This document shows, piece by piece, positions 10,103 to 62,526 of a stretch of 64,000 bases of DNA. The stretch lies in NCBI GenBank assembly GCA_002104985.1, contig MCGO01000092.1, forward strand, positions 96,929-160,928, in the 5' to 3' direction. The first letter of the stretch is position 1. Every line of letters begins with the position of its first letter. The DNA is from Rhizoclosmatium globosum (lineage: Eukaryota; Chytridiomycota; Chytridiomycetes; Chytridiales; Chytriomycetaceae). A model generated the notes under the pieces. It saw only the letters and a list, made by a program, of their open reading frames with translations. It had not been told where the DNA came from and ran no database searches. The translations under genes were made by a program, and so were the position numbers.

Positions 10103-13100
10103 ATGCCGAAAGAGCCACGAAAGATGGATCCGATTGCATTCAAAGTCACACACAAGAACACCACCCTCGAGATGAGTATGGGAGCAGACGAGACTGTTCT
10201 TGAGCTGAAGAAGCGCATTGAGGAAAAAACTGGGATTGACCCCAATCTGCAAAAGGTATCCTTCTCAATCTCATGGTCCATTATCCTTGCATAGTATGGT
10301 GTTGCCTGTGTCAGTGGTGGTACTAGGTCAATAAAAACACTTACATCAGCTATACGTCGCTACCGTGTCCAGCAGCTCCACGGGAGGCCAATTGCAAGAT
10401 AGGAAAGTGTGTGGATTTGTTGTCCACTCGCTCAGATCCTCCGTAGTCATCCTCAGCCTGCCTCGAAGTGGAACCAATCCCACCTTTGTCCAATCTCCCT
10501 TCCACCTCCTCCACCACAACATACTCCAAACGCCCTTTAATAATACGCTGTTTTTTTGAAGGAGGAGGTTTGGTGTTGCCTCCACTTGGTCGACCACCAC
10601 TCCCTCCTCCACCACTCCCACCTCCAGGTCCTCCACCACCGGGATCGCCGTTTCCATCACTGTTTTCACCACCTCCTGTCCCACCACCTCGAATGTGGTG
10701 ATGAACCCGCATCAATGCAATTGCCCACGTTAGATTCTCAATGAATAAGCCGCTTTTGATGTCGCGTGGGAGACGAAAGGTGAGACTATCACGTGAACAT
10801 ATTGCACGACCACTGCACCGTGGGTTGGAGCATTTGAACGTCTTTGCCTTTCCAATTCGAGAGATGCGGCCGCAGAAGCACATGATTGTTGACCCAATCT
10901 AGTGAACAGTGAACAGGTTAAATAAAGTAAATTGGATGAGACTCTTACCTCAGTCACTATGACTACAGCCTTGATCTTTCCAACTCTGCCAACAAGAGGA
11001 AACGCAGGATCAAATTCTTTGGCCATGACTTTCTTCATTTTGGATATATTCCAGGCAGGTCCACCAGGATTAAAGAATGCGCCGTCATTTTCCGACTTTT
11101 TGTACGCCATTACTGTGGTTTGTTTCCTGATGGAAGCATGGGCCGCATATGAGAGGACAGTCTTGACCCATTCTAAGACAGAGGTGGTTAGATTCAAAAT
11201 TCAGTGATCAATCACACCCACTTGGAATACCATCCTTCCCAGAAGTCACTTTCTTGTTTGTGGTTTTGGAGTTGAAGTCAGATGTAGCGTATGAGTCTGC
11301 ACTAGAATTCCATTCCGCGGCAGATCGACGAACTCGTTGAGCGTACTTGTTCAAGTCCTCTTGCGCGTTCTTGAGAAGGCGTGAGAAGTTGTTGGCGTCG
11401 TCTCCACCACCACCACCTCCATCAAAGGTGACATTGAATTCATTTCGCATCTTTTTCAACTCCTTATCCACTCTCCCCACTTCATCCAGAACATCATTTT
11501 CCTTGTCCACCAGATTCATGTCATCTGGGCCAGGAGTTGGTTTACGAACCATTCTTGCTGACGCGCGAAGCTCCTTCAACCTAGCCTCCAACTCCTGCTC
11601 TGCTGAAAGTACAAGATTTTCCAGTCGCAATGTTTCTTTTGCCACAACTTGATCACCAGAAGCGTATTTAACAAGATCCAATTCAGCAGCGGCAACACGA
11701 CTCCGTAGCACTATCACAGTGTCAATTTGATCAATGGCCCTGTCTCGAAACGATTGAAGAGTGCTAATTCGCTTCTGAAGACGACAAATCACTGCTTCAA
11801 ATCCGACTCCAATCTGAACAACATGGCCTGTACTCGCCATCTGCGTTTCCACTGTTCTTCCACCTGGATCACTGCTCAACAATAAACGAGATGTTCCAAA
11901 CGCATTCCGAAACGCAGACTGAACAGCTTCTGATGGATTTGTGATCCAAACATCAGGACTGTGGAAGGATCCCATCCGAGATTTGAATAGTTCCGTATCT
12001 TCAGCATGAACTGCGCCCAATTTGACACAGTCGTAGCGAAACGAACCAAAGTTGTGTTGACGAGCATAAACAGTCATGGCATCTTCCAGTTTGCGACGAT
12101 GCTTTGCAGAACATTCATTCTGAATTCGATTTCGGAGGTACCGAACCAAGTGTGATGCATGCCGATATTCCTCGCGTGCCTTCAAGTTTGATGGATTTGC
12201 AGCATAGTATTTTCGAGTCTCAGCCATCTCTTTCAAAGAATCTGACAATAACTCTTGGACTTCATTAAAGCTGACATCAATGGAATCGCGGTTGACTGCG
12301 GGTGTTGTTGTTGGATACCGTCGAGGGGCATTGTTGTATGAATAATGTTTTGTAATCTGTCCTAATTCATGGGTGTTCATGTGGTGAGTTTGAAGCGGCA
12401 GCATTGATTTGAAGATTCCAGTTTCCCTGTCATACGTAATACTGATTGCACCTGGCCTATACGTCACGAATTCATTCTTGGAAGTCGGGAAGTTAATTGT
12501 TGAGTTCTTTGTCAGACAAAGGTGGATGACATTCCTTGCACTCGCAAATATCTTGAATCCTAGTGGATGCACAACAAGTCTCTGACAGAGTGGACCTCCT
12601 TTTTCTAAAGCCAGACGCATCAAGTTCAAGTAATGCAAATTGACAGAAGGGAAGTTAGGCGGCCATGGAATGTCTCTGGTGGGTTCATCACAAGAATCAA
12701 GGAAATAGCCTTCAATGTGTGCAGCTGTTTGTTTGTTTTGATCAAAGACAGCAGACTGCATCCCACGAACTTGCGAGTCAGGCAGTCTAGGAAATATGGT
12801 GTGACCATCAACTGAGAGATATCGACGATTTGAGTGGCTGAACTGGTCATGGAATGATTTTCCTGGTTAAATGTGTTGGATTAGGAAAGCGCAATGAAAG
12901 ACATGATGTCAAAGAAAGGAAAGAAGATTACCAAATTTCAGGCCAGTTGTAGTCCATGTCTTGTATCTCGCAATAGCGCCTTTGAACGCACCCTGCACAA
13001 CACCTGTGTTATTGAGCTGTTCACCGACCTTGTTTTCCAAGTATCCTTCATTCCCAAACAACAAATACTTGCTCTTGCTCAGCTTAAATATATCAGTGAA

Positions 13101-14570
13101 CAAGTTTACAAGATCATCTCGGCATAAATGTGTGATGTTGACATATGCCTTTGAAGATACTAATCGTGTTCCAGTTTCCAGACACAAGCCCCACTGAACA
13201 GGCTGGATATATTGAAGAATGGAGGTCTTGAACAAGGTTCTTAGTTGAGCAAGAGTTAGCTGGGAGTTGTCCTCTGGGGCTTTGTCTTCTTCATCCACTC
13301 CCTCTTCCATTTGAACTCCAACTCCACCTCCAACTCCAAGTCCAACTCCAACTCCAACAGGTATTTCAACATCAATTTCTTTCACGGGTTTGATGACAAA
13401 TGAAACAACAAGAGCATCCAGAAACTGGGAAAGAGCCTTAGAGTAAAAGTTGCCTCCGACAGCAGGCTGAACTCCAGTGATGATTGCCGGATGCCTGTAA
13501 CGCTCAATATTATTCCGCGACTGTATAGTTTCATCGATTTCCTCGTCCAGTTGGTAGGCAGGTAAATTCATAACATACTGATAGATGGAAAGTTCATGTG
13601 GACTCAAAGAATTCAGAGTCACTTGATGATCAGCACCAACCAGAAACCCATCAACTATACTGAACGGGCCAGTTTCAATAATCACATCCATGGCTCTAGT
13701 AGTACCAAGTTCTGCATCAGTCAATGGGACTTTGGAATCAGGGAACCGATTAAACAAGAGATCTGAGAAACTTTGTGCAGCATCATGAAGATTTTGGCAC
13801 TTCTGACCTTCACTTCCCCCTTTTAAAGCTTCTATACAAGGGAATGCTCAGTGACGAGAAGACAATTGGCGAATCCAAGATTGTAGCTGGCGCCAAAGTA
13901 ATGCTGATGGCTTCTTCTGCAAAGGTGCGTGTTCATGAGTAGCGTTCTACTTCCACACTATCAAGTTTCATCTGAACATACCCACAACCCTTGAAACCCA
14001 AATTAGGATATCATGACTGTAGTTGCACCCCCACCCGTGGATGCTGCCACCTCAGGATCAGGGGCTGCGGCTGAGAAAGTCTCCATCTTCACTGAGACTG
14101 AACACGCCAAAATCATCAAACGTGGAAAGCCCGACTTTGAGATTGAGAAGGGATTGACTACAGGTGCGTTTTGGTTTTAAACCGACGGATTGAAGGTGAT
14201 GTTTGACTTTGTTCTAACAGGTCGAGTAAGCTTACCAAGTCTCGGAGTCACGGTTCTGAATCAACGCGGAATGAAGACACGTTTGTCGTTTAGGAATGAG
14301 ACGGCTGAGTTGCAGATTGCTACAGCTGAACGCACGCAAAAAGTGCCATTTGGCTCTGTATCTCGAATTCGATCTGAGGATATGCCGTTAGAGCATGGGG
14401 GAGAAGGATATGCTGCCATTGGAATTCAAGTGGGCCCTACAGAGAAGAGTATTGTATGGTTCTACTGGGTGCCGAGACAATATGTTGAGAATATTAAAGA
14501 CACTGTGTTGGGAACTTTTCCTGGTGCTCAATATCTACTGGATTCCATTTTGAACTTTAAATCGTCATAA
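10103..14570 (+). CDS. UBFD1: Ubiquitin domain-containing UBFD1-like protein, split by a transposable element in intron 1
   Basis: Exons 10103-10255, 13829-13924, 14007-14163 and 14221-14570 give 251 residues. The first two exons code an N-terminal ubiquitin-like domain (ADETVLELKKRIEEKTGI, then LQK joined to LLYKGML). The last exon matches the UBFD1 C-terminal block (GMKTRLSFRNETAEL, VGPTEKSIVWFYWVPRQYVENIKDTVLG). UBFD1 is a poorly understood ubiquitin-like-domain protein linked in animals to NF-kB signalling. Intron 1 is 3,573 bp because it contains a truncated element copy in antisense orientation; other introns here are about 45-300 bp. Splice phase is 0 on both sides, so the gene can still be intact if the intron is removed. 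Confidence 0.85.
10339..13797 (-). mobile_element. RuvC-bearing element, copy 1 (5'-truncated), inside UBFD1 intron 1
   Basis: About 3.46 kb nearly identical to 31650-35147 of the full element. The left limit is the shared sequence ACTTACATCAGC, which lies just past the element gene's stop codon. Copies 1 and 2 also share the preceding A-run and CAC. The right limit (13797) falls inside exon 17 of the element gene, where similarity to copy 2 stops abruptly. CACTT occurs at both edges (10338-10342 and 13798-13802). It could be a 5-bp target duplication, but copy 2 also has CACTT at this edge, so microhomology is equally possible. All introns of the retained part are present. Confidence 0.85.
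10350..13797 (-). CDS. Truncated element gene: RuvC (Fanzor/TnpB-like) region, copy 1
   Basis: Exons on the minus strand are 13797-12932 (cut at its 5' side), 12862-11222, 11172-10949 and 10898-10350. Exon lengths of 1,641 and 224 nt equal those of the full copy. The first in-frame ATG is at 13757, giving a possible protein of 1,079 residues without stops. It keeps SSDPGGRT, the [13 protein letters not shown] zinc-ribbon start, the KCSNPRC second Cys pair and the SRD motif. The Gly-rich linker after the zinc ribbon differs in length from the other copies, but by a multiple of three. It lacks the roughly 2,750 N-terminal residues of the full protein. Whether it is expressed is unknown; it lies antisense in the intron of UBFD1. 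Confidence 0.7.
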
Positions 14571-16031: not shown

Positions 16032-16167
16032 CAACGGCAAATCAAAAGGTGGGTGACGACGACTTGCGGAGTTTTTGCGACACTGGATGGCGTCAACACT
16101 TTTGATCTCCCAAACTTTGTTTTTTTTACACATTTTTTTCTGATTACTATCTTTTATTCATTAATGG

Positions 16168-17047: not shown

Positions 17048-17080
17048 GGAAAGGTCTTTTTATGTTCTCAACAGGAAAAA
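17048..17080. repeat. 33-bp copy of the full element's 5' terminus
   Basis: The 33 bases here are identical to 44782-44814, which are the last bases of the 13.2-kb element before its 18-bp target duplication. Identity starts and stops sharply on both sides, and on the right it stops exactly at the element/target boundary. The piece sits 56-88 bp upstream of the second bHLH start codon, in its presumed 5' leader. It is most simply a stranded element end left by excision, deletion or abortive insertion. The reverse, capture of host leader DNA by the element, cannot be excluded. Confidence 0.7.
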
Positions 17081-31583: not shown

Positions 31584-31601
31584 AAACATCATCTAGGTTT
31601 G
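31584..31601. repeat. 18-bp direct repeat, left copy (target-site duplication)
   Basis: AAACATCATCTAGGTTTG, identical to 44815-44832. The two copies flank the full element exactly. The right copy is host sequence, because it contains the stop codon of the EXORDIUM-like gene. The left copy is thus the duplicate made on insertion. Confidence 0.8.
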
Positions 31602-31660
31602 GAGGTCAAAGTTTTTTAAAAGTTCTCTTAGACTTGTTGCTAAAAAAACACTTACATCAG

Positions 31661-34600
31661 CTATACGTCGCTACCGTGTCCAGCAGCTCCACGGGAGGCC
31701 AATTGCAAGATAGGAAAGTGTGTGGATTTGTTGTCCACTCGCTGAGATCCTCCGTAGTCATCCTCAGCCTGCCTCGAAGTGGAACCAATCCCACCTTCGT
31801 CCAATCTCCCTTCCACCTCCTCCACTGCAACATACTCCAAACGCCCTTTAACAATACGCTGTTTTTTTGAAGGCGGTAGTTTGGAGTCACTTCCACTTGG
31901 TCCTCCATTTCCTTCACTGCCTCGACTTCCACCGCTTCGTCCACTCCCTCCACCTCTCCCTCCACCTCTCCCTCCTCCAGGTCCTCCACCACCGGGATCG
32001 CCGTTTCCATCATTGTTTTCACCACCTCCTGTCCCACCACCTCGAATGTGGTGATGAACCCGCATCAACGCAATTGCCCACGTTAGATTCTCAATGAATA
32101 AGCCGCTTTTGATGTCGCGTGGGAGACGAAAGGTGAGACTATCACGTGAACAGATTGCACGACCACTGCACCGTGGATTTGAACACTTGAACGTCTTTGC
32201 CTTTCCAATTCGAGAGATGCGGCCGCAAAAGCACATGATTGTTGACCCAATCTAGTGAACAGTGAACAGGTTAAATAAAGTAAATTGCATGAGACTCTTA
32301 CCTCAGTCACTATGACTACAGCCTTGATCTTTCCAACTCTACCAACAAGAGGAAACGCAGGATCAAATTCTTTGGCCATGACTTTCTTCATTGTGGGTAT
32401 AGTCCAGGCAGGTCCACCAGGAACAAAGAATGCGCCGTCATTTTCCGACTTTTTGTACGCCATTACTGTGGTTTGTTTCCTGATGGAAGCATGAGCCGCA
32501 TATGAGAGGACAGTCTTGACCCATTCTAAGACAGAGGAGGTTAGATTCAAAATTAAGTGATCAATCACTCTCACTTGGAATACCATCCTTCCCAGAAGTC
32601 ACTTTCTTGTTTGTGGTTTTGGAGTTGAAGTCAGATGTGGCATATGAGTCTGCACCAGAATTCCATTCCGCGGCAGATCGACGAATTCGTCGAGCGTACT
32701 TGTTCAAGTCCTCTTGCGCGTTCTTGAGTAGGCGTGACAAAAGGTTTGTGTCGTCTCCACCATCACCACCTCCATCAAAGGTGACATTGAATTCATTTCG
32801 CATCTTTTTCAACTCCTTATCCACTCTCCCTGCTTCATCAAGAACATCATTTTCCTCGTCCACCACATTCATGTCATTGGGACCAGGAGTTGGTTTACGA
32901 ACCATTCTTGCTGATGCGCGAAGCTCCTTCAACCTAGCCTCCAACTCCTGTTCTGCTGCAAGTACAAGATTTTCCAGTCGCAATGTTTCTTTTGCCACAA
33001 CTTGATCACCAGAAGCGTATTTAACAAGATCCAATTCAGCAGCGGCAACACGACTCCGTAGCACTATCACAGTATCAAGTTGATCAATAGCCCTGTCTCG
33101 AAACGATTGAAGAGTGCTGATGCGTTTCTGAAGACGACAAATCACTGCTTCAAATCCGACTCCAATCTGAACAACATGGCCTGTACTCGCCATCTGCGTT
33201 TCCACTGTTCTTCCACCTGGATCACTGCTCAACAATAAACGAGATGTTCCAAACGCATTCCGAAACGCAGACTGAACCACTTCTGATGGATTTGTGATCC
33301 AAACATCAGGACTGTGGAAGGATCCCATCCGAGATTTGAATAGTTCCGTATCTTCAGCATGAACTGCGCCCAATTTGACACAGTCGTAGCGAAACGAACC
33401 AAAGTTGTGTTGACGAGCATAAACAGTCATGGCATCTTCCAGTTTGCGACGGTGCTTTGCAGAACATTCATTCTGAATTCGATTTCGGAGGTACTGAACC
33501 AAGTGTGATGCATGCCGATATTCCTTGCGTGCCTTCGGGTTTGATGGATTTGCAGCGTAGTATTTTCGAGTCTCAGCCATCTCTTTGAAAGAATCAGACA
33601 ATAACTCTTGGACTTCATTAAAGCTGACATCAATGGAATGGCGGTTGACTGCTGGTATTGTTGTTGGATACCGTCGAGGGGTGTTGTTGTATGAATATTG
33701 TTTGGTAATCAGTCCTAATTCATGGGTGTTCATGTGGTGAGTTTGAAGCGGCAGCATTGATTTGAAGATTCCAGTTTCCCTGTCATACGTAATGCTGATT
33801 GCACCTGGCCTATACGTCACGAATTTATTCTTGGACGTTGGGAAGTTAATTGTTGAGTTCTTTGTCAGACAAAGGTGGATGACATTCCTTGCACTCGCAA
33901 ATATCTTGAATCCTAGTGGATGCACAACAAGTCTCTGACAGAGCGGACCTCCTTTTTCTAAAGCCAGACGCATCAAGTTCAGGTAATGCAAATTGACAGA
34001 AGGGAAACTAGGCGGCCATGGAATGTCTCTGGTGGGTTCATCACAAGAATCAAGGAAATAGCCTTCAATGTGTGCATTTGATTGTTTGTTTTGATCAAAG
34101 ACAGCAGACTGCATCCCACGAACTTGCGAGTCAGGCAGTCTGGGAAATATGGTGTGACCATCAACTGAGAGATATCGACGATTTGAGTGGCTGAACTGGT
34201 CATGGAATGATTTTCCTGGTTGAATGTGTTGGATTAGGAAAGCGCAATGAAAGACATGATGTCAAAGAAAGGAAAGAAGATTACCAAATTTCAGGCCAGT
34301 TGTAGCCCATGTCTTGTATCTCGCAATAGCGCCTTTGAACGCACCCTGCACAACACCTGTGTTATTGAGCTGTTCACCGACCTTGTTTTCCAAGTATCCT
34401 TCATTCCCAAACAACAAATACTTGCTCTTGCTCAGCTTAAATATATCAGTGAACAAGTTTACAAGATCATCTCGGCATAAATGTGTGATGTTGACATATG
34501 CCTTTGAAGATACTAATCGTGTTTCAGTTTCCAGACACAAGCCCCACTGAACAGGCTGGATATATTGAAGAATGGAGGTCTTGAACGAGGTTCTTAGTTG

Positions 34601-37600
34601 AGTAAGAGTTAGCTGGGAGTTGTCCTCTGGGGCTTTGTCTTCTTCATCCACTCCCTCTTCCATTTGAACTCCAACGCCTCCGCCAACTCCAACAGGTACA
34701 TCAACAGGTATTTCAACATCAACTTCTTTCACGGGCTTGATGATAAATGAAACGGCAAGAGCATCCAGAAACTGGGAAAGAGCCTTGGCGTAAAAGTTGC
34801 CTCCGACAGCAGGCTGAACTCCAGTGATGATTGCCGGATGCCTGTAACGCTCAATATTATTCCGCGACTGTATAGTTTCATCGATTTCCTCGTCCAGTTG
34901 GTAGGCAGGTAAATTCATGACATACTGATAGATGGAAAGTTCATGTGGACTCAAAGAATTCAGAGTCACTTGATGATCAGCACCAACGAGAAACCCATCA
35001 ACCATACTGAACGGGCCAGTTTCAATAATCACATCCATGGCTCTAGTGGTACCAAGTTCTGCATCAGTCAATGGGACTTTGGAATCAGGGAACCGATTAA
35101 ACAAGAGATCTGAGAAACTTTGTGCAGCATCATGAAGATTTTGGACTGGAACAGCTTGACCAACACCTGGTGCAAGTCGAACTCGATAAACAACCTCTCC
35201 AGATGTATCTTCACTTGTGTTCTGTTGGCGTGGAATGTAATCCTCATTATCCTCACCCTGAAGACTTTCTTCATCGTCACCACTGTCTGCTTCAGCTGCC
35301 TTTGCAGCCTTCTTTTCTTTCTTCAAGTCATCTTCAAGCCAGATGCTCAGACTCAATTTCAACGCTGAGATGCTAGAGTCCTTCAAGTACACTGCAAGGT
35401 AATGTTCCTTGTAAGGGATGTTGAAGCCAGATTCTGGATCCAAAAGTTGAGTAACAACAGCAGTCCTTAAGAGCGCGAGCTGTTTGGCAGAGTGGTCTGT
35501 CGGATAGTACCAATACTGTCCAGAATCGGTGATGAACCCAACAGCTCCGTCATTCATTTCTTCTTCCCAAACTTGGAGTGATTCACTGGTATTTGCTGCT
35601 CCCAACAACATGGCCAAGATAATCATTCGATCCCAAGAACTCGACTTTGACTGTTTGAGACCATCAAGTTCGACAACAATATCAAACAGAATTCTCAGTG
35701 GATTTGAATTTTTGGCTTTGAACAGGTCGCGTATAATCTCAAGAAGATGTTGAGGTTGCTGACCAACAGATAGACGATTATTCTCAATCTCAGGGCTCTG
35801 GTTTCTTTTGAATGTTGGAGAGTCTAGAAACAATAATATTCTGTGATGCACTGGATACTGATTCTGATCTTGGGGCAGACCATTGTGAAGTCTAATGTTT
35901 ACAGCGGCTGCATGCAACTTGTTGAACAAATTGATGGTTCCAGGAGTAAGCACGTGGACAGTGTCAAAGATCAAGGTTGAAAGGTCCACGTAAGCTTTGA
36001 GCGACTGTCTTTCAGCTTCATTTGGAACCGTTCCTATTCAGCAAAAGTGATGAAATGAGAAAAACAAAGAGGAGTATAAAGTTATCTGAGAAACATACCA
36101 TAAGCTACATATGTATTCAAGAAATGCTGTTCGTGGTCTTTCTTGTCAACTGTCATCCTTTTCCGCTCAAGTATCATGTCTGCTTGTGCAGCAGTCATGT
36201 CCCTAAAACCAGAAAGGTCAGTTCTTTGATGACAACGTTGAAGTAAAAGAACACTTACGCAAGATCAATTTGTTCTTGGGTTGCATCATCAGCAAGGTTG
36301 CGGCGATTCACAAATGCTTGTTTTAGCTGACGTTCCTGCTCTTCTTTGAGAATCTTGATCACTTTGGGAGCCATTTGTTTCAGCCTTTTGTTGTCTAGTT
36401 CAAAGATTGAAGTATCAATCTTGCGACGAGGTTGTTTCTAGGTATTTGGGTTAGATTACATTAAGGTTCCATACTTCAAATATTATACCAAGACTTGAAC
36501 TTCTTCAATCTCAATGGGGCCATCACTCTTGGTCTTGTCACTCTCGGTCTCAGAATCTCCAGTCTTGTTCTGTTTGAAAAGCGGCAGAAACAAAGCCTCG
36601 TATTGATTGTTGTTGGACCAGTTACGCGGAACCTCGCCCAGTTGCGGAACTCGTTGTGAAGGCATAGTACCAGACATGTGGGCTCCTTTGTAGCCACGAG
36701 TGTGTTTGAAAGTAAACTTGGATCCATCCAAGGAAACAACAACTGGACGGATGTTCAAGACTTTGGAATCAGAAGGAAGAATATTGGTTTGAAGTGTCAG
36801 ATTCGGAAAGTTGTGCTGAGCAAATACAAAATCCCAGTCATCATCATCAAAGCGCTCTTGAACTCTTTGATTTAGGACAAAATCAAGAGTCAGCTGCGCG
36901 CCACCTTCAAAACGTTGCTCCATATACGGCAGAGTCTCTTCCAGCTTTAACCACCTTTGGACTACTGCGCGCATGTTTGCATATCCAAGCTTCGAGATAG
37001 ACAGTGGAGACGACATGGGTTGTGCGACCCGACCACGACCAAAGTGGGTTGCGATGGCAGCGTTCAAAACAAGATTGTTGGAATTCTTGAACTTTGGGTG
37101 ACGAGATAAGAGCTTCCTTATGACTGTGTTGAAGTTGTTTCGGTACACAGAGGCATTGTCTTGACTGCCAGACACAGAAACAAGAGAGGCAGGCTGTTCA
37201 TGTACCAAGCCAGCAACAAAGTTTTGGATTCCAACAGCAACAGAGTGGCCTCGAACACGTCGAAGAGTATCATTCCAAGCTGGAGAAATAAGTTCATTCC
37301 ATAGATAGACTTGGGTTTCGTTGGTGTCAGGTCTTATGAATGACTGAGAAATGGAATACAGTCTTTGATGTGACTCTTTCCCCACGTGGAGCAAATGAGT
37401 TGTTTGATATCGGAAATCCCGAAGAACCACAGTCTCGCCCATAAGAATTGAGTGAAGACCCAGCACTTTGATTTTGGCAGAGACAGGTTGATTCCTGGTG
37501 GGATTGAAAGAAGTTGTAGCCAGCACTTGAAACAAAGGTAGAATCTATTGTTCAATGCTCAGTTTTAATTCTTGGAAAGAAGTGGAAAAAACATACATGA

Positions 37601-40600
37601 GATATCTTTGAATCCTTATTCTTGAAGAACACAACACCAAGCTCCGTAGCTCCTGAAAACGTCATTGGTTCTTTGGTGAAATCAGGTGCTTTCGAATAGT
37701 GCTTGAACAAGACAGACCCAGAACACCATTCTCCATTTGTAAACGTTGGCCCATTGTCAGCAAGCCCGTTCAGTAACGTCAACGCTGATTGGAATACATG
37801 ATGCATACCATTCTTTTGTACTTTGAGGCTGCGACCAATAACCTTCTTGTTGAGCAAAGAAAGTCCAATCAACATCAGTTTGCTCAAGTCCATCAGCTCT
37901 GTGTAGTTTTCAGAAGACTGGAGAAAAAATGCGGGACTGATTGGAGTGGCATCAATGAATAGCTGACACTCTCCCAATCCTAGTCAAATGGTAAGTTTTG
38001 ATACTTGGTTTAACAACAAACACTAACCATGTGCCTCTCCCATCTCAACGTCTTCATTATCGTGCAAAACGTCAACACCACCAACAACTACGTTTCCAAC
38101 TGCATCAACTTGAAGATTGAGACGGTGCTGGTTGTCCTGAGCAACTTGGACTCGGTGTTGATGAATGGGGGTGTTCAATAAACGTGCACTGTTTGTCCAG
38201 TGCAGTGTTTCTACAATAACCCCAGTCACATTCTTGATCCCGCCCTTCTTGTTGTACTGCTGAACTGCACCAAACAACTCTATTGCCTCCTTGTCACTCA
38301 GCTTGGATTTATTGGCTGCTGCGAAATCAAGTCGGTGCGCCAAGTACGGACCATAGCTTTGAGAAACGTCTTGATTCTTCAAAGCGTGATATACGTTAGT
38401 CATGTCAACGTCAGTCGGATCACCATTTGTGAACGCCTGCCAGGTAGCAGCCAGTTGGCGAAGAACAATAAAGTCATGAAGTTTAAGCTCCCGATTTGTC
38501 ATGGCTGTCCGTGGAGGTTTCAACTGTTTTCCATCGTTGGTCTTGATCCAAATTGGATAACTGCCTGGACGCATAGAGTGAGCTGCTGTTGCTGGATGAT
38601 TGACTGAATACACGTGACTTGATCCCATTTCGAAGGCCTGGTTTACTAGACGAGCGTCCATAATCCCAAGCAACGTGACACAGCGAGAGGCGTCGGAACC
38701 AGCCACCAATTGTCGGTTCACAACTGAGTTGGAACTTGTGGATGGAGCGACAGTAGTAGTTGGATCAGCCAGAGCCGGAGAATCAAGAGCAACAGGAGCT
38801 ACGGGAACGACGGGAACGACGGGAACGACGGGGACTACAGGTGCAACAGGGGCTACGGGTGCGACGGGAGCAACGGGAGCAGTAGGAACAGTAGGAACAG
38901 TAGGAACAGCGGTAACAGCTGGATCATAGTTTGGGTGTGACTCAATCATGTGTCGAATCAAGTCTTGACAATATCCATCTTGAAGGCAGACAGGACAAGT
39001 ATCGTCCTACAACAGAACCACCACGTAAGTAAAATATAAATTGGCAAGATTCAAAACAAACCTGTGATCCAGCTTTGGGTGAGTTTGAAATAAGTCGAGC
39101 AAGATGGATGTTGAAAAGATTGGCATCTGTGTACGATCCTCTCGAAGGAAGGGTAGGCCGTGACGAAGCAGGTCGATGGAAATGGTGAGCCAACAGGTGG
39201 GCTTCAAACGCAGCCAACGTTGCCGCGTCACTTGACTTTTGGTGAGAAGTCCGACACAGTGGACAGAAGCCATTCTAAGTGTTGAAATGAGTATGACAAA
39301 CAAAAATGAAACATCATACCAAGAAGTGTTGTTCGGTAAATACCTCCGCAAGTCGATAATCTTGATTCTGCAATTTGTCCATTAGTATGAAGTGCTCCTT
39401 CTTCCAAGCTTCGCTGCTGTCTGGTCGAGGACGTTGAGGCCAGCTTCCAAACACAGAGCTACTTTGTCTTTCTTGTCTTCCCCCACCAAGTACATTGGAT
39501 GTTCTGCCAACATCTCTGACCCCACCACCTCCAAGTACATTGGATGACCCTCCGAGAATCCCAGGTTTCCCACTGCCAACAGCCGCGAATCCTTCGTCCG
39601 CAACAAGACGTTCCATTCCAACACTCCCGCTTCCTCTTCCACTCCCACTCCCACCAGCACCAACACCAACACCAACACCAACACCAGTTCCAGGTTCAGC
39701 ACCAGCACCAACACCAGCACCAACACCAACACCAACACCAACACCAGTTCCAGGTTCAGCACCAGCACCAACACCAACACCAACACCAACACCAACACTA
39801 AAACCGCCAATACCAATACCATCTTCACCAACGTCGACCTCTGCTTCATCCATCAAAGAAGCAGCACCAGCCTTGACCATAAGCGCCAAAGTCACTTTGT
39901 ACATGGCTTCGTGAATGGCCTCAACATTGGCAACCTTGGTTCCCAGAACTGGTTCAGCACACACACCAACGTCCAGGAGTATCTTTGGACAGAACAGATA
40001 CCTATAAATCAAAATGCGTCAAGTCCAACAATTCTACTGTAAGAAAGAGAACTAACCGATTCAGCGACAAGATAAACACAACAGTCGGAACAACGTTTTG
40101 CCTTCGAGATACCAACTCCTTCCTCAACTGTTCCGAAGATCCACTCAGAGGGAATACAGTAGCTGCATGGGTCTCTTGAAGTACATCAAAGGTTGCTTGA
40201 TTGATACTGTAGCTCCAGTCACCAGTGAAACAGCTGCAGTGATCCAATCCATCAATCATGCCCTGAGGACACTTGTACAGTTGAGGTACTATACTGAACT
40301 GCGTTTCACCCTCCAGATTGTTTTCAGCATTGTGTCTGCGCACGGAAATAATGCGATTACGAATCGCAATCAAGGCAGGCCCGGCTGGATGAATGAACCC
40401 AAACTGAGATTCAAAAGAGGCCAGAGCTTCATGGATGGTCATACTGTCAATAGTATCCAAAAAGGCTTGGCAAGTAAGTAGCGATCGTGAGGTACTCAAG
40501 AATCTATCATAAGCACGAGCAAACAAACGGTAGCGTGGCCTCAGGGTGTTGGGAATAAATGATGTGCTGGCATCAACATAGATAGAACCTCGAGGTACTT

Positions 40601-43600
40601 TGACGCGGGTAAGAGACAAAGGCTCCTATTACGAAACAATAATAATGTGGTTAGAATCAAGATGAGAGACATTTTGCTAAACTCACCATTGGTACTGGAT
40701 CCAAAGGAGGATTCTCTTCAACATCATCGGCATCATCATCCTCCATAGCTCTCTTTCCTTTCCCTTTCGCTGATTTCGCTGTTGCTGCTTTCACTTTCAC
40801 TGATTTTTTGGCCGGTTTTGACTCTTTTGCTTTCTTTGCTCCTTTGCCTTTTCCAGCAGCTGATATGAAAGGAGCAGTGCCATACCCAAGATCCAGATCT
40901 GCCAGGTTTTGCTCCAGTTCAAACAGATCAACCGCATCAAAGCTGTCCAGATTCAAAGTTGTGGTTCCGATCAGCAAATCTTCCAGTCCACCAACAGAGT
41001 CCACATCCGAGTCCACCTCCAAGTCCACCACACCCAAGTCCAAGTCAGGGTCAGAGTCAGAGTTAGAGTCATTGGAGTCGTCGAAACCAAATCGCTGAAA
41101 CCAATCAAGTAGGTCGGAATCAATGTCACTGACCTTATTATCAAGAGTTAGATTCAACAGAGTATCAATCAAGATATTACCTCTACATCAGCCAGAGATT
41201 CAGGGTCAGACTCATTACAAGTTGAGGGTTCAGTTTCTGTCTCAGAATCAGACACAATAAACGAAACATATTCTGATATTGGAGCCGGAGGAGCAGACAG
41301 CGTGGACGCACGACCCGACTCGGCTTCAACGGTTTGAGACAAGGCAGAAGGAATAGAAGTCGCATCAAAACCAGACATTTCGAATGGAGCGTATTCAGGC
41401 AACGGAGAAGAAGTCAAAACGGAAATAGAACTTGTTTCGCCTTCAACGGAGCCAGAAGTGGCTAAAGTGTTCGACATCAGTGGGACAGTCGTCTCTTCGT
41501 CAGACTGATAATCAATTTGGTTCAGATTCTTTGGTGTTGGTGTTGCCGCTACGTCGAGGTAATCACCACGTGATATAGTCGCAGAAGAGTCGCCAACGTT
41601 GAGATCAGAATCCTAAAAAACCAGTGAGACAACACTATTTCGAATAGAACAAGAGAATGACTTACAGTTGTGGATGATTGGCGGGAATAATGGAAGGGGC
41701 GACGACCTCGGTGCGAATATGGCTGTATTGGGCTGAAACTTGGAACAGACGAACCAGCCACTGATGACCCACCAAGAGATGGAAGCTCATTGGACTCATC
41801 ACGAAGTGGGATCGGGGGTGGTGGATCTGATGGAGAACTGCGAGTTGATGCTTCGACAGATGAAGTAGTGGAAAATGGACCTGTCTCGGTTGTTGGTGTC
41901 GCATTACTTTGGGATGGTCGACTATTTGAATAGGTAGTCGTCAAGAACTCCTTCGTATCATCTTGAGTTCGAGAGGCACGATCTGCTCCTCCACGTACTG
42001 GCACCACAAACTTGAGAGTTGAGTCAGTTGGAATGTTGTACGCTATTTTGAAGGTTAAAATAGAATACATTTTCAAGTTTAATACTTACAAGACAAAAGG
42101 CTCGAGTCTTCCAACTTGACGAAACCAAAGGCAAGAGTACAAGATAGAGCATAAACCACGTTTCGTTCTTCATATAGAAATTCTCGAAGGTCACGAATAG
42201 TTGACACAGAAGGTATTTCGACAAACAGATTGTGACCATCCACCAGTTTGACAAAAAAGCGTGAGAGTGGAGTTTCAAGAGTAGTGGCCAGATCCAAGGA
42301 TTCAATTTGAGCAATAGATGTTGGACACTCGTCAAGTTGTGACCATGACTTGAATAAAGTAGACATGATGGCCCTTTTCTGGTAAATACAGCTGATACTA
42401 TCCAAGAAACCAAATACGGCCAATGCAATCTCAGGAGTTGGAATCCAATCTTTGTACGACACGGAATCCAGTGAATAACCGGCCGCTTGATTGTTCAATG
42501 CAGTCACTGGTTCAAGAAGTGGTGGTGGCTCTCGCGGTGGACTGTCTCCTTGAGGGATGGTATTCACTTCAATCAGAGTTGATTCAATAAGCTCAGCCGC
42601 TTTTGATAAACCTGTTACGTTTAAAGGTTTAGAGATTAGAAACAAAATGTTAAGGGACTGGGTCAAAGCGCTTACCAAGATGAGCAACTACATGAGATGG
42701 AATGAAGTCAAGTAGGGTAATTGGAGGGAATGGTGGGTGGTGTATAGTTGGTTTGGGGGTTTTTGGGAGAGTGGGTGAGGCGGCAGGGTAGTCCAAGGGC
42801 AAATGGGTGCGCTTTCCAACTGGAAGAGAATTACTTGTCACCGCAACACCAACAGCTTGATGTATGTCAACAGCGATAGACCAAGATGGCGAGACCTGAG
42901 GATTCATATCCGAGAACCAAATCCCAGTGTGGTGGCGAACAATATTCTTGGCTGTCAACTTGGTGCGGTCGGACTTGGTCGCCGTCTGTGACAGACGAGG
43001 ATTTCGAAAAACAGTTGTTTCAACCATAACTGGAATGGCTACGACTGAATCAAGATGGTTAGAAGTAGGAATTGGAGTGGAGGTCTTGGTGGTATTTGAT
43101 CCGCTGTGTGGCCTTGGACGTGACCCAAGCTGCACAAGAGTACTGGGATTCAGACCAAGATCTATGAGCTTGAATAAGCAACAACGAATTTCAATGAACG
43201 CAATAAAAACTTACCATAGAGTGTTCGAGATGAGGGCAATCGCTTCCAGTGCCGACCAGGTCGATACAGTTGGAGACCAACAACTGGAAGACCAACAGAT
43301 GCAGCCTGCTTTGCTTCCAGCACAGTTGAATCATTGGAGACAAGAACCATCGTGATTGAGCCATTTGGCACGATAACAGATAGATAGAACTTGTCATGAA
43401 CGGACAGCGGCTTTGAAGGCACTGATAACCAACTGCAACTGGACAGCCAAGAGTAGCAGACATACTTGATGAGATCCAAGAACCCGCCAATCATAGACCC
43501 ACAGAAGTCCAGGAGTGAGTAGAGCGGGGTAACAAGGTTCTCATAACGAGCAAGTAGCTCGGCAACACGAATCTCCTGGATAAGTCGTTCATAACCAGCA

Positions 43601-44209
43601 AGCAGCTCCACCAGTTGAGCAATCTTCTGTTCCTTCTCCACGGCTTTGAGAGTTCTCTTGGCCCAAGACTTGTGTCGGCGATGTTCTTTCCTTCTTCGTT
43701 CGTACCTGGCAGACCCAAAGAGTGCATGATTTCTCAACCATTTTGAGTGGAACTTGAACTGGAGACGTAGTGAGTTCTGGAATAGAAATCTTTCCCAAAC
43801 AAGTAGAAAGAATGGAAGAGGGCATGAGATGGACACGGAAAGGAGTGACGAAATTGAGAGTTTCAAGGTGACCTGGGTGGGGAAAGGAAAAGACAAACGT
43901 TAGAAATGCGATTCAAAGAGGACACAAGAATTGTACCTGCGTGTCCACAAGTGGAAGACAGATTGAAGCCAAGAATCCTCCCACGGTGGTTGGCGACCAG
44001 TGTTTGGAACCCCTGATTACATTCACTTGGACAAGAGACATCAAACACCGACAAATGATCAGCGAAAGACCACGGAATAAATAGGATACTATGTGTCAAT
44101 AATATTGTCAGTGATGCTCATTGCGATTCAGGAGACACAACACACCTGCTGCAGTGAAGACCTTCGAAAGGAAGGCAAAGAGAGCGACGACGGAGAAAGA
44201 GAATAGCAT
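31661..44209 (-). CDS. Giant multidomain protein with C-terminal Fanzor/TnpB-like RuvC region
   Basis: Twenty minus-strand exons: 44209-44146, 44088-43937, 43872-43215, 43161-42676, 42611-42090, 42042-41666, 41612-41181, 41133-40687, 40625-40057, 40001-39320, 39274-39062, 39006-38028, 37979-37597, 37544-36489, 36437-36259, 36202-36099, 36033-34285, 34215-32575, 32525-32302 and 32251-31661. All 19 joins keep phase, giving 3,835 residues. Seen in order are a hydrophobic start (possible signal or anchor), a ubiquitin-like segment near 235-310, acidic Ser-rich linkers (about 680-1000), a Gly/Val repeat, two C2H2-like fingers (CPLC...H...H near 1465; CPVC...RH...H near 1537), large unrecognised globular regions, and then the RuvC-like part. 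This has DPGGRT near 3348, VVIVTE-IGST-x-x-CFCG near 3640, KCSNPRC, and SRD near 3676. The order DPG, E/D-x-(T)S-x-x-C-x-C, C-x4-C, RD is that of TnpB/Fanzor. The RuvC-II acidic residue is not assigned. The start codon is uncertain. Confidence 0.7.
38799..38921. repeat. 9-bp minisatellite coding Pro-Val/Ala-Pro units
   Basis: Tandem units of the type GGAACGACG / GGGGCTACG run for about 120 bp inside exon 12 of the element gene. On the coding strand they give Val/Ala-Pro-Val triplets. The unit length of 9 bp keeps the frame when copy number changes. Confidence 0.85.
39655..39800. repeat. GGTGTT-type minisatellite coding Val-Gly repeats
   Basis: CACCAACACCAACACC units are interrupted twice by the same block (CAGTTCCAGGTTCAGCACCAG), giving a higher-order repeat of about 60 bp in exon 10 of the element gene. 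The coding strand reads VGVGVG...AEPGTG. Unit length is a multiple of three. Confidence 0.85.
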
Positions 44210-44814
44210 CGTTTAAGTCTATTCGGATATTTAGTATCAGTGCTTAAATCAAGAAGAAGAGGAAAGGCATGGTAGGAATTAGGCGTAGACAGCCTCTGCA
44301 AGTTTCCACTCCTTCACCAACAACAAACATTTGACACAACCACAGGTTCATAGGGAAGGAGGAGTGAATAACCAACGGTATCAAGAGGAATTGAAGGGTG
44401 AGATATGGGCAGATGGGATCGTAATCAAATTGAGTGGGGGACGGTGGTCCAGACCAATGACAATCCAGATCACGGAATGAGAGGATGCCGTAAGATCGCA
44501 GAGGACCCAAGGTGAACAAACAGTCCTCAATCAACGGCAACTAACGCGCGCAGCTTGAAGAAGGGAAGGGAAGGGGAGGGATGAAGGGGAAAAAGGGGAT
44601 TCACTTGCAAGCGTTTGTTCAAATTTGTGAGGATTTTCAAAATTTGGCTCTCTATCCACAGGGAGAGTGAAGAGAATGAACAGAAAATATATGTCATTAT
44701 CACCTCGTTGTTGAAACCTGTCCTTAAAAAACGGCAGTATTTTGCACTATAACGTTCATTCAAGTATTGCAATCTGGATAGGGAAAGGTCTTTTTATGTT
44801 CTCAACAGGAAAAA

Positions 44815-44832
44815 AAACATCATCTAGGTTTG
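44815..44832. repeat. 18-bp direct repeat, right copy (original target site)
   Basis: Identical to 31584-31601. It includes the stop codon (44820-44822, minus strand) and the last three sense codons of the adjacent secreted-protein gene, so the element sits five bases past that stop. Confidence 0.8.
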
Positions 44833-46190
44833 AAAGCAGTTGTTCTCTGTTTAGGAACGACATTGGTTGTTTGAGCAACATACTCTGGTCTTAGACTTTT
44901 TGCAAGCGTGATTGCGGTTGGTTGCTTGGCAGATGCGTTCTTTGTGTCTTTTCTGCTAGATTCTGCTCCTATAGCGCGTTTTGTTGTGGTTATGGAAGTG
45001 GTTGGTTTCTTGAAACTTGGGATTGTTGAAGTGGATGATCGCCGCGTTGTGGAAAGTGATGAACTCTTTGCTGTCGATGATTTCAGTTTCATTGCCTGTG
45101 AATTCGTTGGTGTAATTTGAAGAAGAGTGGTAACTTGCTTCCAAGTCTTTGTTGTTAGTAAAGTGGTAGTCCTTTTTGAAGTCACAGTCGTAGCACTCGT
45201 TTGGACAGTTGATTGCACAGTACCACCTAGCCTTGGATCAGATGCCATACACTTCACATTCTTGTTGGACCAGACTTGTTGCACAACCCAACTCTTTCCC
45301 GTCAACGGATCAATCAAAGTAGACTGCATAGCGTTACAAATATCCGCAACCTCGCCTCCCAAATAATTTGATGGGGAGAACCAACCCATCGGTGCCGCAG
45401 GGCTCCTGCTATTCGTGTACGAAACAGCTGGATTCGTAACCGATTCTGTAAATTCGTGCGACGACACTGAACACAGGTTTTCAAATGGATCCCTCGATAT
45501 ACCGCATCCTCCCATGCACGTTCCAGATTGGTCTGCAATGACGGCGTAGTAGAGGTAGGGAGTTGACGGGATGCCGAGATCGCTAATATCGAAGGTACCG
45601 TGGTATCCACAGAAATGGATGCATGATTTTGAGCCTTGTTGTGTTACTGTGACACCGGGTTGTGTATAAATGGGAAAGTAACTGTTTGGGGAAGGCCAGA
45701 TGATTCCGTTCACGATTAAGTCAAAAAGGTAAGGTAGGATATCGTTGTCGTCGTCTAACGTCTTTGCGCCTGTTATGAGGGGATCCTTTTCGACGTACGG
45801 AGTTCCTAATCGGCCATAGCCAATTTGTGCTGTGGAGGTTGAATATTCGGAGTTGAGTATTTGAGCGAGAGGAGATTTTACTAGAAACGCGTAGTACTCG
45901 AGCAGTCTTTTACTGTCTGGAATAGGTCCAATGAAGATCGGGTTTCTGGTTTTGGTTTAGAAAACCGTTCAGAACTCAGGTAATTCATACACAGTCGCAG
46001 ACTGAAGTACAGGGCCACCATAATAAACAAGATTCTTTGAAAAGGTGCCTCTACTTTTTAACTGCCTCTGAAGTGTGGTGAACCCAACGCGTCGCAAAGT
46101 AGAGTCCAAGATCGGAGAAGCCGCAGCAACGGCAAGAAGGTATACTGTTACAACGAACACGAGGATCATCCATGCTTTCATGAAAATCAT
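44820..46190 (-). CDS. Secreted EXORDIUM/PHI-1-like protein with Ser/Thr tail
   Basis: Minus-strand exons 46190-45991 and 45945-44820 give 441 residues. A signal peptide (MKAWMILVFVVTVYLLAVAAAS) is followed by NLVYYGGPVL, the YxGGP motif near the start of the EXORDIUM (phosphate-induced protein 1) domain. HFCGYHGTF, a Cys pair in CMGGCG, HEFTESVTNPAV and GGEVADICNAM complete the pattern. The HEFTES stretch could also be a metal site, which plant members lack. The tail is Ser/Thr/Lys-rich, like a wall-protein stalk. A start at the second Met (46181) is possible. The giant element was inserted five bases after the stop codon, so the 3' untranslated region is now element sequence. Confidence 0.65.
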
Positions 46191-59253: not shown

Positions 59254-62200
59254 ACTTACATCAGCTATACGTCGCTACCGTGTCCAGCAACTCCACGGGA
59301 GGCCAATTGCAAGATAGGAAAGTATGTGGATTTGTTGTCCACTCGCTCAGATCCTCCGTAGTCATCATCAGCCTGCCTCGAAGTGGAACCGATCCCACCT
59401 TCGTCCAATCTCCCTTCCCTCTCCACCTCCTCCACTGCAACATATTCCAAACGCCCTTTAACAATACGCTGTTGCCGGAGGAGGTTTGTTGTTGTTGCCA
59501 CCACTTTGTCCTCCGCCTTCCCGTCTGACTCCACCACTCCCTCCTCCTCTCCTTCCTCCACCCGGTCCTCCACCTCCTGGATCGCCGTTGCCATCATTGT
59601 TTTCGGCACCTCCCGTCCCACCACCTCGAATGTGGTGATGAACCCGCATCAACGCAATTGCCCACGTTAGATTCTCAATGAATAAGCCGCTTTTGATGTC
59701 GCGTGGGAGACGAAAGGTGAGACTATCACGTGAACAGATTGCACGACCACTGCACCGTGGATTGGAGCATTTGAACGTCTTTGCCTTTCCAATTCGAGAG
59801 ATGCGGCCGCAGAAGCACATGATTGTTGACCCAATCTAGTGAACAGTGAACAGGTTAAATAAAGTAAATTGCATGAGACTCTTACCTCAGTCACTATGAC
59901 TACAGCCTTGATCTTTCCAACTCTGCCAACAAGAGGAAACGCAGGATCAAATTCATTAGCCATGACTTTCTTCATTGTGGGTATATGCCAGGCAGGTCCA
60001 CCAGGATTAAAGAATGCGCCGTCATTTTCCGACTTTTTGTACGCCATTACTGTGGTTTGTGTCCTGATGGAAGCATGGGCCGCATATGAGAGGACAGTCT
60101 TGACCCATTCTAAGACAGAGGTGGTTAGATTCAAAATTCAGTGATCAATGACACTCACTTGGAATACCATCCTTCCCAGAAGTCACTTTCTTGTTTGTGG
60201 TTTTGGAGTTGAAGTCAGATGTGGCATATGAGTCTGCACTAGAATTCCATTCCGCGGCAGATCGACGAACTCGTTGAGCGTACTTGTTCAAGTCCTCTTG
60301 CGCGTTCTTGAGCAGGTGTGAGAAGTTGTTGGTGTCGCCTCCTCCAACACCACCTCCATCAAAAGTGACATGGAATTCATTTCGCATCTTTTTCAACTCC
60401 TTATCCACTCTCCCCTCTTCATCCAGAACATCATTTTCTTCATCCACCACATTCATGTCATCTGGGCCAGGAGTTGGTTTACGAACCATTCTTGCTGACG
60501 CGCGAAGCTCCTTCAACCTAGCCTCCAACTCCTGCTCTGCTGAAAGTACAAGATTTTCCAGTCGCAATGTTTCTTTTGCCACAACTTGATCACCAGAAGC
60601 GTATTTAACAAGATCCAATTCAGCAGCGGCAACACGACTCCGTAGCACTATCACAGTGTCAATTTGATCAATGGCCCTGTCTCGAAACGATTGAAGAGTG
60701 CTGATGCGTTTCTGAAGACGACAAATCACTGCTTCAAATCCGACTCCAATCTGAACAACATGGCCTGTACTCGCCATCTGCGTTTCCACTGTTCTTCCAC
60801 CTGGATCACTGCTCAACAATAAACGAGTTGTTCCAAAAGCTTTTCGAAATGCAGACTGAACAGCTTCTGATGGATTCGTGATCCAAACATCAGGACTGTG
60901 GAAGGATCCCATATGAGATTTGAATAATTCCGTATCTTCAGCATGTACTGCGCCCAATTTGACAGAGTCGTAACGAAAGGATCCAAAGTTGTGTTGCCGA
61001 GCATAAACAATCATGGCATCTTCCAGTTTGCGGCGGTGCTTTGCAGAACATTCATTCTGAATTCGATTTCGAATGTACCGAACCAAGTGCGATGCATGCC
61101 GATATTCCTCACGTGTCTTCGGGTTTGATGGATTTGCAGCATAGTATTTTCGAGTCTCAGCCATCTCTTTGAAAGAATCAGACAATAACTCTTGGACTTC
61201 ATTAAAGCTGACATCAATGGAATCGCAGTTGACTGCGGGTGTTGTTGTTGGATAACGTCGAGGGGCGTTGTTGTATGAATATTGTTTCGTAATCTGTCCT
61301 AATTCATGGGTGTTCATGTGGTGAGTTTGAAGCGGCAGCATTGATTTGAAGATTCCAGTTTCCCTGTCATACGTAATGCTGATTGCACCTGGCCTATACG
61401 TCACGAATTTATTCTTGGACGTTGGGAAGTTAATTGTTGAGTTCTTTGTCAGACAAAGGTGGATGACATTCCTTGCACTCGCAAATATCTTGAATCCTAG
61501 TGGATGCACAACAAGTCTCTGACAGAGTGGACCTCCTTTTTCTAAAGCCAGACGCATCAAGTTCAAGTAATGCAAATTGACAGAAGGGAAACTAGGCGGC
61601 CATGGAATGTCTCTGGTGGGTTCATCACAAGAATCAAGGAAATAGCCCTCAGTGTGTGCAGCTGTTTGTTTGTTTTGATCAAAGACAGCAGACTGCATCC
61701 CACGAACTTGCGAGTCAGGCAGTCTGGGAAATATGGTGTGACCATCAACTGAGAGATATCGACGATTTGAGTGGCTGAACTGGTCATGGAATGATTTTCC
61801 TGGTTGAATGTGTTGGATTAGGAAAGCGCAATGAAAGACATGATGTCAAAGAAAGGAAAGAAGATTACCAAATTTCAGGCCAGTTGTAGCCCATGTCTTG
61901 TATCTCGCAATAGCGCCTTTGAACGCACCCTGCACAACACCTGTGTTATTGAGCTGTTCACTGACCTTGTTTTCCAAGTATCCTTCATTCCCAAACAACA
62001 AATACTTGCTCTTGCTCAGCTTAAATATATCAGTGAACAAGTTTACAAGATCATCTCGGCATAAATGTGTGATGTTGACATATGCCTTTGAAGATACTAG
62101 TCGTGTTCCAGTTTCCAGACACAAGCCCCACTGAACAGGCTGGATATATTGGAGAATGGAGGTCTTGAACGAGGTTCTTAGTTGAGCAAGAGTTAGTTGG

Positions 62201-62526
62201 GAGTTGTCCTCTGGGGCTTCGTCTTCTTCATCCACTCCCTCTTCCATTTGAACTCCAACTCCAACTCCACCTCCAACTCCAACTCCTACAGGTACTTCAA
62301 CATCAATTTCTTTCACAGGTTTGATGACAAATGAAACAACAAGAGCATCCAGAAACTGGGAAAGAGCCTTGGCGTAAAAGTTGCCTCCGACAGCAGGCCG
62401 AACTCCAGTGATGATTGCTGGATGCCTGTAATGCTCAATATTATTCCGCGACTGTATAGTTTCATCGATTTCCTCGTCCAGTTGGTAGGCAGGTAAATTC
62501 ATGACATACTGATAGATGGAAAGTTC
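59254..62526 (-). mobile_element. RuvC-bearing element, copy 3 (5'-truncated)
   Basis: About 3.27 kb nearly identical to 31650-34945 of the full element. The left limit is again ACTTACATCAGC. The right limit is inside exon 17, about 200 bp short of the copy 1 limit, and there the sequence changes to the 3' region of a Ty1/copia element. All introns are kept. I see no target duplication. Confidence 0.85.
59265..62526 (-). pseudogene. Truncated element gene: RuvC region, copy 3, with late frameshift
   Basis: Exons on the minus strand are 62526-61869 (cut), 61799-60159, 60109-59886 and 59835-59265. The DPGGRT, zinc-ribbon and SRD motifs are all present. The last exon is 571 nt, against 591 and 549 in the other copies. 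It is therefore out of frame by one after the zinc ribbon, near 59470, and stops at 59458. An ATG at 62610 in the flanking copia DNA opens a frame that runs into the exon, so a chimeric protein of up to 994 residues is possible. The loss affects only the Gly-rich linker and tail, so the nuclease-like core may still be intact. Confidence 0.65.

Follow-up and report, generated by a model that had tools for sequence, protein, structure and literature searches.

Non-long-terminal-repeat (non-LTR) retrotransposons such as LINE and R2 elements have a shared 3' end, many 5' truncations, and target duplications of variable length, and they can carry extra sequence at the 3' side. Rolling-circle elements of the IS91 type have one end fixed just past the 3' end of their gene, and the other end is variable. 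Genomic copies of Penelope-like elements retain introns and also show 5' truncation and target duplications (PMC3846280). Crinkler-type proteins combine a ubiquitin-like part with a presumed nuclease and have links to transposons (PMC5289972). In eukaryotic Fanzor proteins, RuvC-I reads DPG almost without exception, and the RuvC-II glutamate is displaced to a position six residues ahead of the zinc finger (Yoon et al. 2023, PMC10711439). A published motif for the C-terminal region is D-X(125,275)-[TS][TS]-X-X-C4-X(5,50)-RD (Bao and Jurka 2013), and for related TnpBs a published pattern puts 4-8 residues from the last Cys to the RuvC-III Asp (PMC10711439). Here we compare with these systems a mobile element from the chytrid Rhizoclosmatium globosum, found in a 64,000-nt stretch of contig MCGO01000092.1 (positions 96,929 to 160,928 of the forward strand; hereafter the window).

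Copy B, inside this window, is a complete member of a multi-copy R. globosum mobile element that encodes a single protein of 3,835 amino acids (aa) under selection. Two further window copies are labeled A and C; L-numbers and C-numbers denote loci and contigs of the 57-Mb genome that was searched. The best reading of the whole, to which we give an even chance, is that the selected giant protein of this mobile element would have a Fanzor-type RuvC end and that the element would spread by 3'-anchored copying of an unspliced template.

A multi-copy element encoding a single giant protein

The gene of copy B, as rebuilt by script, consists of 20 exons on the minus strand with 3,835 codons and a stop codon (Table 1). 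All 19 introns have GT..AG ends and are 45-69 bp long, and the 11,508 nt of coding sequence are joined without a single phase conflict. An earlier reading, made from the sequence only (the sequence-only reading), had described a single 20-exon, 3,835-codon gene in a mobile element of about 13 kb. This is borne out by diverged copies that are colinear with B, keep its frames, and show purifying selection. The 3.3-kb 3' part of B has at least 50 matches in the genome, at least 20 of which span about 2.4 kb or more, that is, a near-complete 3' quarter. Among the 20 near-complete copies of this quarter, 13 show 89-100% identity and 7 show 75-78%. All seven diverged copies run colinear with B, starting at 44095 (tblastx, 18 kb around each); five of them extend to about 31643-31652, and L041 and L043 stop at about 32299 and 32570, respectively. 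In L033 and L037, exons 2-20 are all open, and the length of each exon differs from that in B by a multiple of 3. Exon 1 shows little conservation among the copies; in L031 its place is taken by an ATG exon that ends in the same phase. Five of the eight full-region copies (B, L033, L035, L037, and L039) are stop-free through exons 2-20, the intron 15 acceptor of L039 being set 1 nt away in this count. The remaining ones are L031, with a frame break in exon 17, and L041 and L043, which lack the 3' end.

The ratio of nonsynonymous to synonymous substitution rates (dN/dS) is 0.23 for B and L037, 0.24 for B and L033, and 0.32 for L033 and L037 (0.23 over 3,676 codons). The giant protein is under purifying selection. 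Since frame and selection are continuous over the junctions tested, several separate genes in place of one are rejected, and 44209-31661 is read best, by a wide margin, as one gene. In the projected frame, the C-terminal part is stop-free in 14 of the 20 rows, B included; L004, which is copy C, has 6 stops. The 58-74 stops counted in L013-L016 and L019 are mostly an artefact of the projected frame; exon 18 alone is stop-free in 19 of the 20 copies, the exception being the copy at C179:176647 with two stops.

Exons are mostly more alike than introns between B and the diverged copies, introns 3 and 5 (83-100%) being odd exceptions. Comparison of window 43215-42042 with L031-L043 gives this same identity for the two introns, 76-86% for exons 3-5, and 38-69% for most other introns, and the synonymous difference between the subfamilies is also lowest around this segment. 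Such a pattern looks like a recent exchange between subfamilies. A further copy at C413:27402-36720 has the 5' end and exons 12 and 14 and lacks the 3' quarter.

A protein search with a C-terminal profile returned five fragments, all from Rhizoclosmatium. The public proteins P0005 (R. globosum BCR33DRAFT_727891) and P0006 are pieces of the giant protein; the fragments from R. hyalinum (P0007) and Rhizoclosmatium sp. JEL0117 (P0008 and P0009) resemble, by eye, the L037 and B types. No relatives outside Rhizoclosmatium were found in three protein-database searches or in viral and genome contig collections, within the length, word, and candidate limits of these searches. One distant locus, C334:104267-105073, was found by a search with the exon 18 protein; it is open and has 26% identity. 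The spliced model of this paralog, built from 8 kb of sequence, comprises 2,214 aa up to the stop and is open at the 5' edge; its alignment with B starts at about aa 1637 and extends through the C-terminus. The paralog is a single locus: its own exon matches itself at 100% and otherwise has 20 matches of 24-35%.

The ubiquitin-like segment and the zinc fingers of the sequence-only reading are retained with reservations. The former is weakly supported, as PF00240 matches it below the curated cut-off; the latter have C2H2-like spacing, and the second finger matches zf-Di19 with an expectation value (E) of 0.0029, also below the cut-off. Otherwise, five pieces of B compared with Pfam gave only one zinc-finger match (E 0.022). 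The reverse transcriptase model RVT_1 matches neither the B pieces nor the stretch of the paralog that was searched, and the same holds for Pfam models of known transposases, DDE, Rep, helicase, and GIY-YIG; P-loop nucleoside triphosphatase (NTPase) and restriction endonuclease (REase) models have no match in the B pieces. In the genome, RVT_1 is found at 132 places, none of them within located element copies (compared by eye).

Apart from the element, two open reading frames (ORFs) lie upstream of copy A at window 14640-16990; their ends may be basic helix-loop-helix-like.

Table 1. Features of copy B and of the other element copies in the window
Feature	Position in the window	Strand	Evidence or remark
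Copy B, entire insertion, 13.2 kb	31602..44814	-	between two 18-bp duplications
Copy B gene, 3,835 aa	31661..44209	-	script rebuild; exon-wise frame conservation; dN/dS
Copy B exons 1-7	44209-44146, 44088-43937, 43872-43215, 43161-42676, 42611-42090, 42042-41666, 41612-41181	-	
Copy B exons 8-14	41133-40687, 40625-40057, 40001-39320, 39274-39062, 39006-38028, 37979-37597, 37544-36489	-	
Copy B exons 15-20	36437-36259, 36202-36099, 36033-34285, 34215-32575, 32525-32302, 32251-31661	-	
Ubiquitin-like segment, aa 573-641, split by intron 5	42004..42255	-	PF00240, E 1e-4 and 3.7e-5, below curated cut-off
Two C2H2-like spacings, about aa 1467-1560, across intron 11	38932..39265	-	spacing; zf-Di19
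DPG with D3349, presumed RuvC-I Asp	33215..33223	-	invariant in paralog
E3639, presumed RuvC-II Glu at the Fanzor 'E_alt' position	32302..32304	-	definition in PMC10711439; invariant in paralog
C4: C3646-x-C3648 ... C3662-x4-C3667, directly after S-T-x-x	32168..32233	-	sequence of the copies
D3676 ('SRD'), alternative RuvC-III candidate, 8 residues past the last Cys	32141..32143	-	Glu in paralog
R3684-D3685 ('PRD'), favoured candidate for the RuvC-III Asp	32114..32119	-	invariant in paralog
69-nt 3'-terminal block	31650..31718	-	kept as nucleic acid; reading frame varies among copies
Copy B 3' tail, 48 nt, between the conserved end and the duplication	31602..31649	-	
33-nt 5'-junction segment, putative filler	44782..44814	-	identical to window 17048-17080; these two places only in a genome search
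18-bp duplication, 5' side, CAAACCTAGATGATGTTT	44815..44832	.	overlaps the stop codon of the ORF at 44820-45956
18-bp duplication, 3' side, CAAACCTAGATGATGTTT	31584..31601	.	flank comparison
Copy A, 5'-truncated	10333..13801	-	
Copy C, 5'-truncated; 6 projected-frame stops, exon 18 open	59254..62526	-	

Insertion ends, 3' block, and C-terminal motif

The duplication that flanks copy B is a match reached in 0 of 1000 flank shuffles, and the 33 nt at the 5' junction look like filler from end repair. The terminal 32 nt of the element occur at 25 genomic places (up to 3 mismatches; reversed control, 0), and 3'-end stubs of just 37-136 nt are present in the genome. The 5' ends vary: nine junctions other than that of B start at seven places equal to B 44619-44750, three of them (L048, L050, and L052) having a common longer 5' end, and window copies A and C are truncated at 13801 and 62526. 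The family is characterized by a shared 3' end with variable 5' truncation, the exceptions being four copies without the 3' end and six shortened ones. Inverted repeats of at least 25 nt are absent from the ends of copy B. No intron-less B-type exon 19/20 junction occurs in the genome with up to 3 mismatches, and, from this one junction, spliced-mRNA retrocopies are rejected.

Past the shared 3' end, each lineage has a short tail of its own, within a range of 6-48 nt (48 nt in copy B, 6 nt in stub L072). All six genomic occurrences of the 19-nt tail TCATTTCCAATTTTAAAAG abut element 3' ends, in three different flanks each present twice, as do all three occurrences of the 21-nt tail ATTGACCTAGTACCACCACTG (up to 1 mismatch in either case). 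Because both are found genome-wide only at element ends, the tails travel with the element. Clear duplications were found at 3 of 15 insertions, namely copy B (18 bp), a 55-nt stub (25 bp, 2 mismatches), and L072 (17 bp, 1 mismatch); that of L025 is borderline (p 0.013). The 55-nt stub (L031+L032) precedes a full-length copy, at about 675-730 nt upstream of the aligned part of the element.

For the 69-nt block at the 3' end, B and five diverged copies show 93-94% identity, compared with only 77-78% for exon 18. In L006-L010 and L012 the block is read in a frame other than that of B, and the paralog retains CACGGTAGTGACGTCATAGCTG across its stop codon. Thus, the block is conserved as DNA or RNA sequence. 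Rfam gave no match for it.

The C-terminus described in the sequence-only reading, with DPG and an S-T-x-x-C zinc-ribbon-like segment, is present in the sequence, with DPG at D3349, the Fanzor state of RuvC-I. The same reading had not found a RuvC-II residue; the presumed one is present, as B reads E3639-IGSTIM-C3646, with exactly six residues between the Glu and the first Cys. The C4 spacing in copy B is CxC and Cx4C. A strict string drawn up in this analysis (DPG...E-x6-C...C4...RD) was met in 0 of 20,000 protein shuffles, and its lenient form in 1 of 10,000. The stretch from E3639 through C4 is identical in 17 of the 17 readable copies among the 20: 14 were read in the first set, L014-L016 were then read through L031, L033, and L035, and L013, L019, and L020 are the unread ones. 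Between B and the paralog, at 29% identity, D3349-P-G, T-E3639, F-C-G, P-x-C, and R3684-D3685 are invariant.

For RuvC-III, the 'SRD' aspartate D3676 had been proposed. It is retained in the copies read, and its distance from the last Cys falls within the published 4-8 residues; on the other side, the preceding Arg is Ser in L031, L033, and L035, and the paralog has Glu in place of the Asp. As the sole candidate it is therefore rejected. D3685 lies farther off and is invariant together with its Arg, and this residue is favoured as the presumed RuvC-III Asp. Among viral contigs, the TnpB-like proteins L075, L078, and L086 have the displaced Glu (E-x6-C) but DLG at the presumed RuvC-I, which is a mixed state. 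From motif and spacing, we give about even odds to a kinship of the C-terminus with Fanzors.

A possible copying mechanism and its alternatives

By motif and spacing, the ~380 residues that precede the Gly-rich tail would most likely form a Fanzor-type RuvC nuclease, in which D3349, E3639, and D3685 (or D3676) would be the metal-binding triad, accompanied by a long helical insertion and a zinc-ribbon-like segment. The structure of the ends suggests the following route. The 3'-terminal ~70 nt, conserved as nucleic acid and not as protein, would be recognized; the C-terminal nuclease would open the target, whose broken or nicked end may serve as the primer; copying would start 6-48 nt past the 3' block and proceed to the 5' end, often halting early; and the 5' side would be joined by end repair, sometimes with filler. 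The template would be unspliced, either unspliced RNA or the element's own DNA, and the kept introns are more simply explained if DNA is copied. The polymerase may come from the host or from another element in trans, or it may be hidden in the middle of the protein. With RVT_1 at 132 places and none in the located copies, a reverse transcriptase acting in trans is possible.

Several observations weigh against this mechanism and the Fanzor-type end that it includes. All parts of the published motif are in order, but D3349 lies 292 residues from S3642 of the S-T pair, which exceeds the limit of 275 by 17, and 2 of the 4 zinc-ribbon Cys are absent from the paralog. Models PF07282 and PF01385 and those of NCBIfam give no match to short pieces at E up to 10; PF07282 has no match anywhere in the genome either (as a control, E. 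coli InsQ matches it with E 2.4e-23). Profile-profile comparison with TnpB went against Fanzor kinship: hhalign gave a probability of 1.3% at most, obtained with nine plasmid, phage, and E. coli TnpBs, 0.6% with these nine plus three displaced-Glu TnpBs, and 0.1% with the latter three alone; as the query was thin (three sequences, Neff 1.5) and the comparison contained no Fanzor1 alignment, these negatives are weak. Sequence searches of the PDB returned nothing relevant, and AlphaFold2 of P0005, run on a five-row alignment of close relatives, gave an unusable model (mean predicted local distance difference test score, pLDDT, 34). The 3' block folds no better than shuffles to a significant degree (13, 145, and 77 of 200 shuffles fold equally; single-strand folds). 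Similarity stops 6-18 nt before the common 3' end in L023, L024, L027, L028, L070, and L073, and four copies lack this end (L011, L019, L020, and the copy with its 5' end at C413:36720), which could be explained by later deletion. Duplications are missing at 11 of the 15 insertions tested, among them L073, which is not informative here, as it probably represents the terminus of a longer, decayed copy (hits at C179:9112-10489). Six full-length copies with both flanks show no convincing duplication as judged by alignment score only, without a shuffle test. For the Fanzor/TnpB-like end of the sequence-only reading, the motif, the RuvC-II Glu, and the invariant D/E/D stand, and the profiles, the 292-residue distance, and the loss of Cys speak against it.

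The most serious competitor, which we consider nearly but not quite an even proposition, is convergence of the C-terminal motif; the protein would then have no relation to Fanzor and TnpB and would be some unknown sort of transposition protein whose end binds zinc. Silent profile and PDB tests, the distance of 292 residues against the published 125-275, and the CxC/Cx4C pattern in place of CxxC/CxxC are in line with convergence. The exact E_alt spacing, the D-E-C4-D order, the invariance of D/E/D at 29% identity, and the rarity of the motif in shuffles speak against it. If this were a LINE-like or Penelope-like retroelement and its own reverse transcriptase had diverged beyond recognition, the common 3' end, the 5' truncation, some duplications of 17-25 bp, and the retained introns would be accounted for, and Penelope elements are known for intron retention, 5' truncation, and duplications (PMC3846280). 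Yet RVT_1, which misses the B pieces and the searched part of the paralog, does find 132 places in the genome, and we hold such a retroelement to be quite improbable.

These 132 places could also provide the copying enzyme for a non-autonomous passenger, copied in trans by another element, with the giant protein in some other role, for instance, in regulation or defence. The 32-nt 3' end, however, was found at 25 places that all coincide with matches to the element's own family, no separate partner element with that end was seen, and the protein is under purifying selection; we regard the passenger as unlikely, if well above negligible. The position of the 3' block is plausible for a guide-RNA scaffold, and independent copies share flanks of at least 19 nt, as might result if the flank past the block were a guide and new copies arose at matching sites. 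Against this, the two tested flanks occur solely at element ends and have travelled with the element. For these two tails, the role of pre-existing guide-matched targets is rejected, and RNA-guided insertion as a whole seems very improbable. The most far-reaching version would define a new class of eukaryotic elements: a Fanzor-type RuvC nuclease, forming the end of a ~3,800-aa protein, would bind the conserved 3' nucleic acid, open the target, and start 3'-first copying of an unspliced template, so that new copies keep their introns and are truncated on the 5' side; this version we consider rather improbable.

Comparison with known elements

The element differs from DDE cut-and-paste transposons in having no inverted repeats of at least 25 nt, no transposase match, and variable 5' ends, and from Helitrons in the absence of helicase and Rep matches. 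With IS91-type elements it shares an end fixed just past the 3' end of the gene and a variable other end, but it shows target duplications and has no Rep match. Introns in genomic copies, 5' truncation, and target duplications are common to the element and Penelope-like elements, from which it differs by a single giant ORF without a reverse transcriptase or GIY-YIG match. Similarly, it resembles the non-LTR elements LINE and R2 in its shared 3' end, many 5' truncations, some variable duplications, and carried 3' sequence, but has no recognizable reverse transcriptase, keeps introns, and shows no poly(A) tail.

At the protein level, a ubiquitin-like part, a presumed nuclease, and a link to transposons are found both here and in Crinklers; here, however, P-loop NTPase and REase matches are lacking, the protein is far larger, and the ubiquitin-like segment is internal. 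Prokaryotic TnpBs of IS200/IS605 and IS607 are distinguished by PF01385 and PF07282, which do not match the giant protein. The likeness to Fanzors includes DPG, a Glu six residues before the first Cys, S-T-x-x-C, four Cys, and RD, as well as location in a mobile element and the overlap of the last coding nucleotides with a conserved nucleic-acid block. The differences are the size of 3,835 aa compared with mostly 600-700 for Fz1 (PMC11423790), the CxC/Cx4C pattern, the 292 residues from D to S-T, the lack of detected similarity to TnpB profiles, and an element without long terminal inverted repeats (25 nt or more).

No description of this element was found in titles or abstract openings of the literature searched. 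It fits no tested family, and we regard it as new as a mobile element: models of reverse transcriptase, DDE, Rep, and helicase do not match it, inverted repeats of 25 nt or longer are lacking, and the protein and contig searches gave no relatives outside Rhizoclosmatium. Its insertion pattern resembles target-primed copying, yet without a recognizable reverse transcriptase and with introns kept. Should the C-terminal motif be convergent, this would still be an unclassified mobile element with enzymology of unknown kind. If the end is indeed Fanzor-like, the RuvC/TnpB lineage has been built into a giant transposition protein, and what Fanzors contribute to their elements could be studied directly here. 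If, moreover, a RuvC nuclease starts the copying at the 3' end, a lineage of RNA-guided nucleases would be joined to copy-and-paste transposition.

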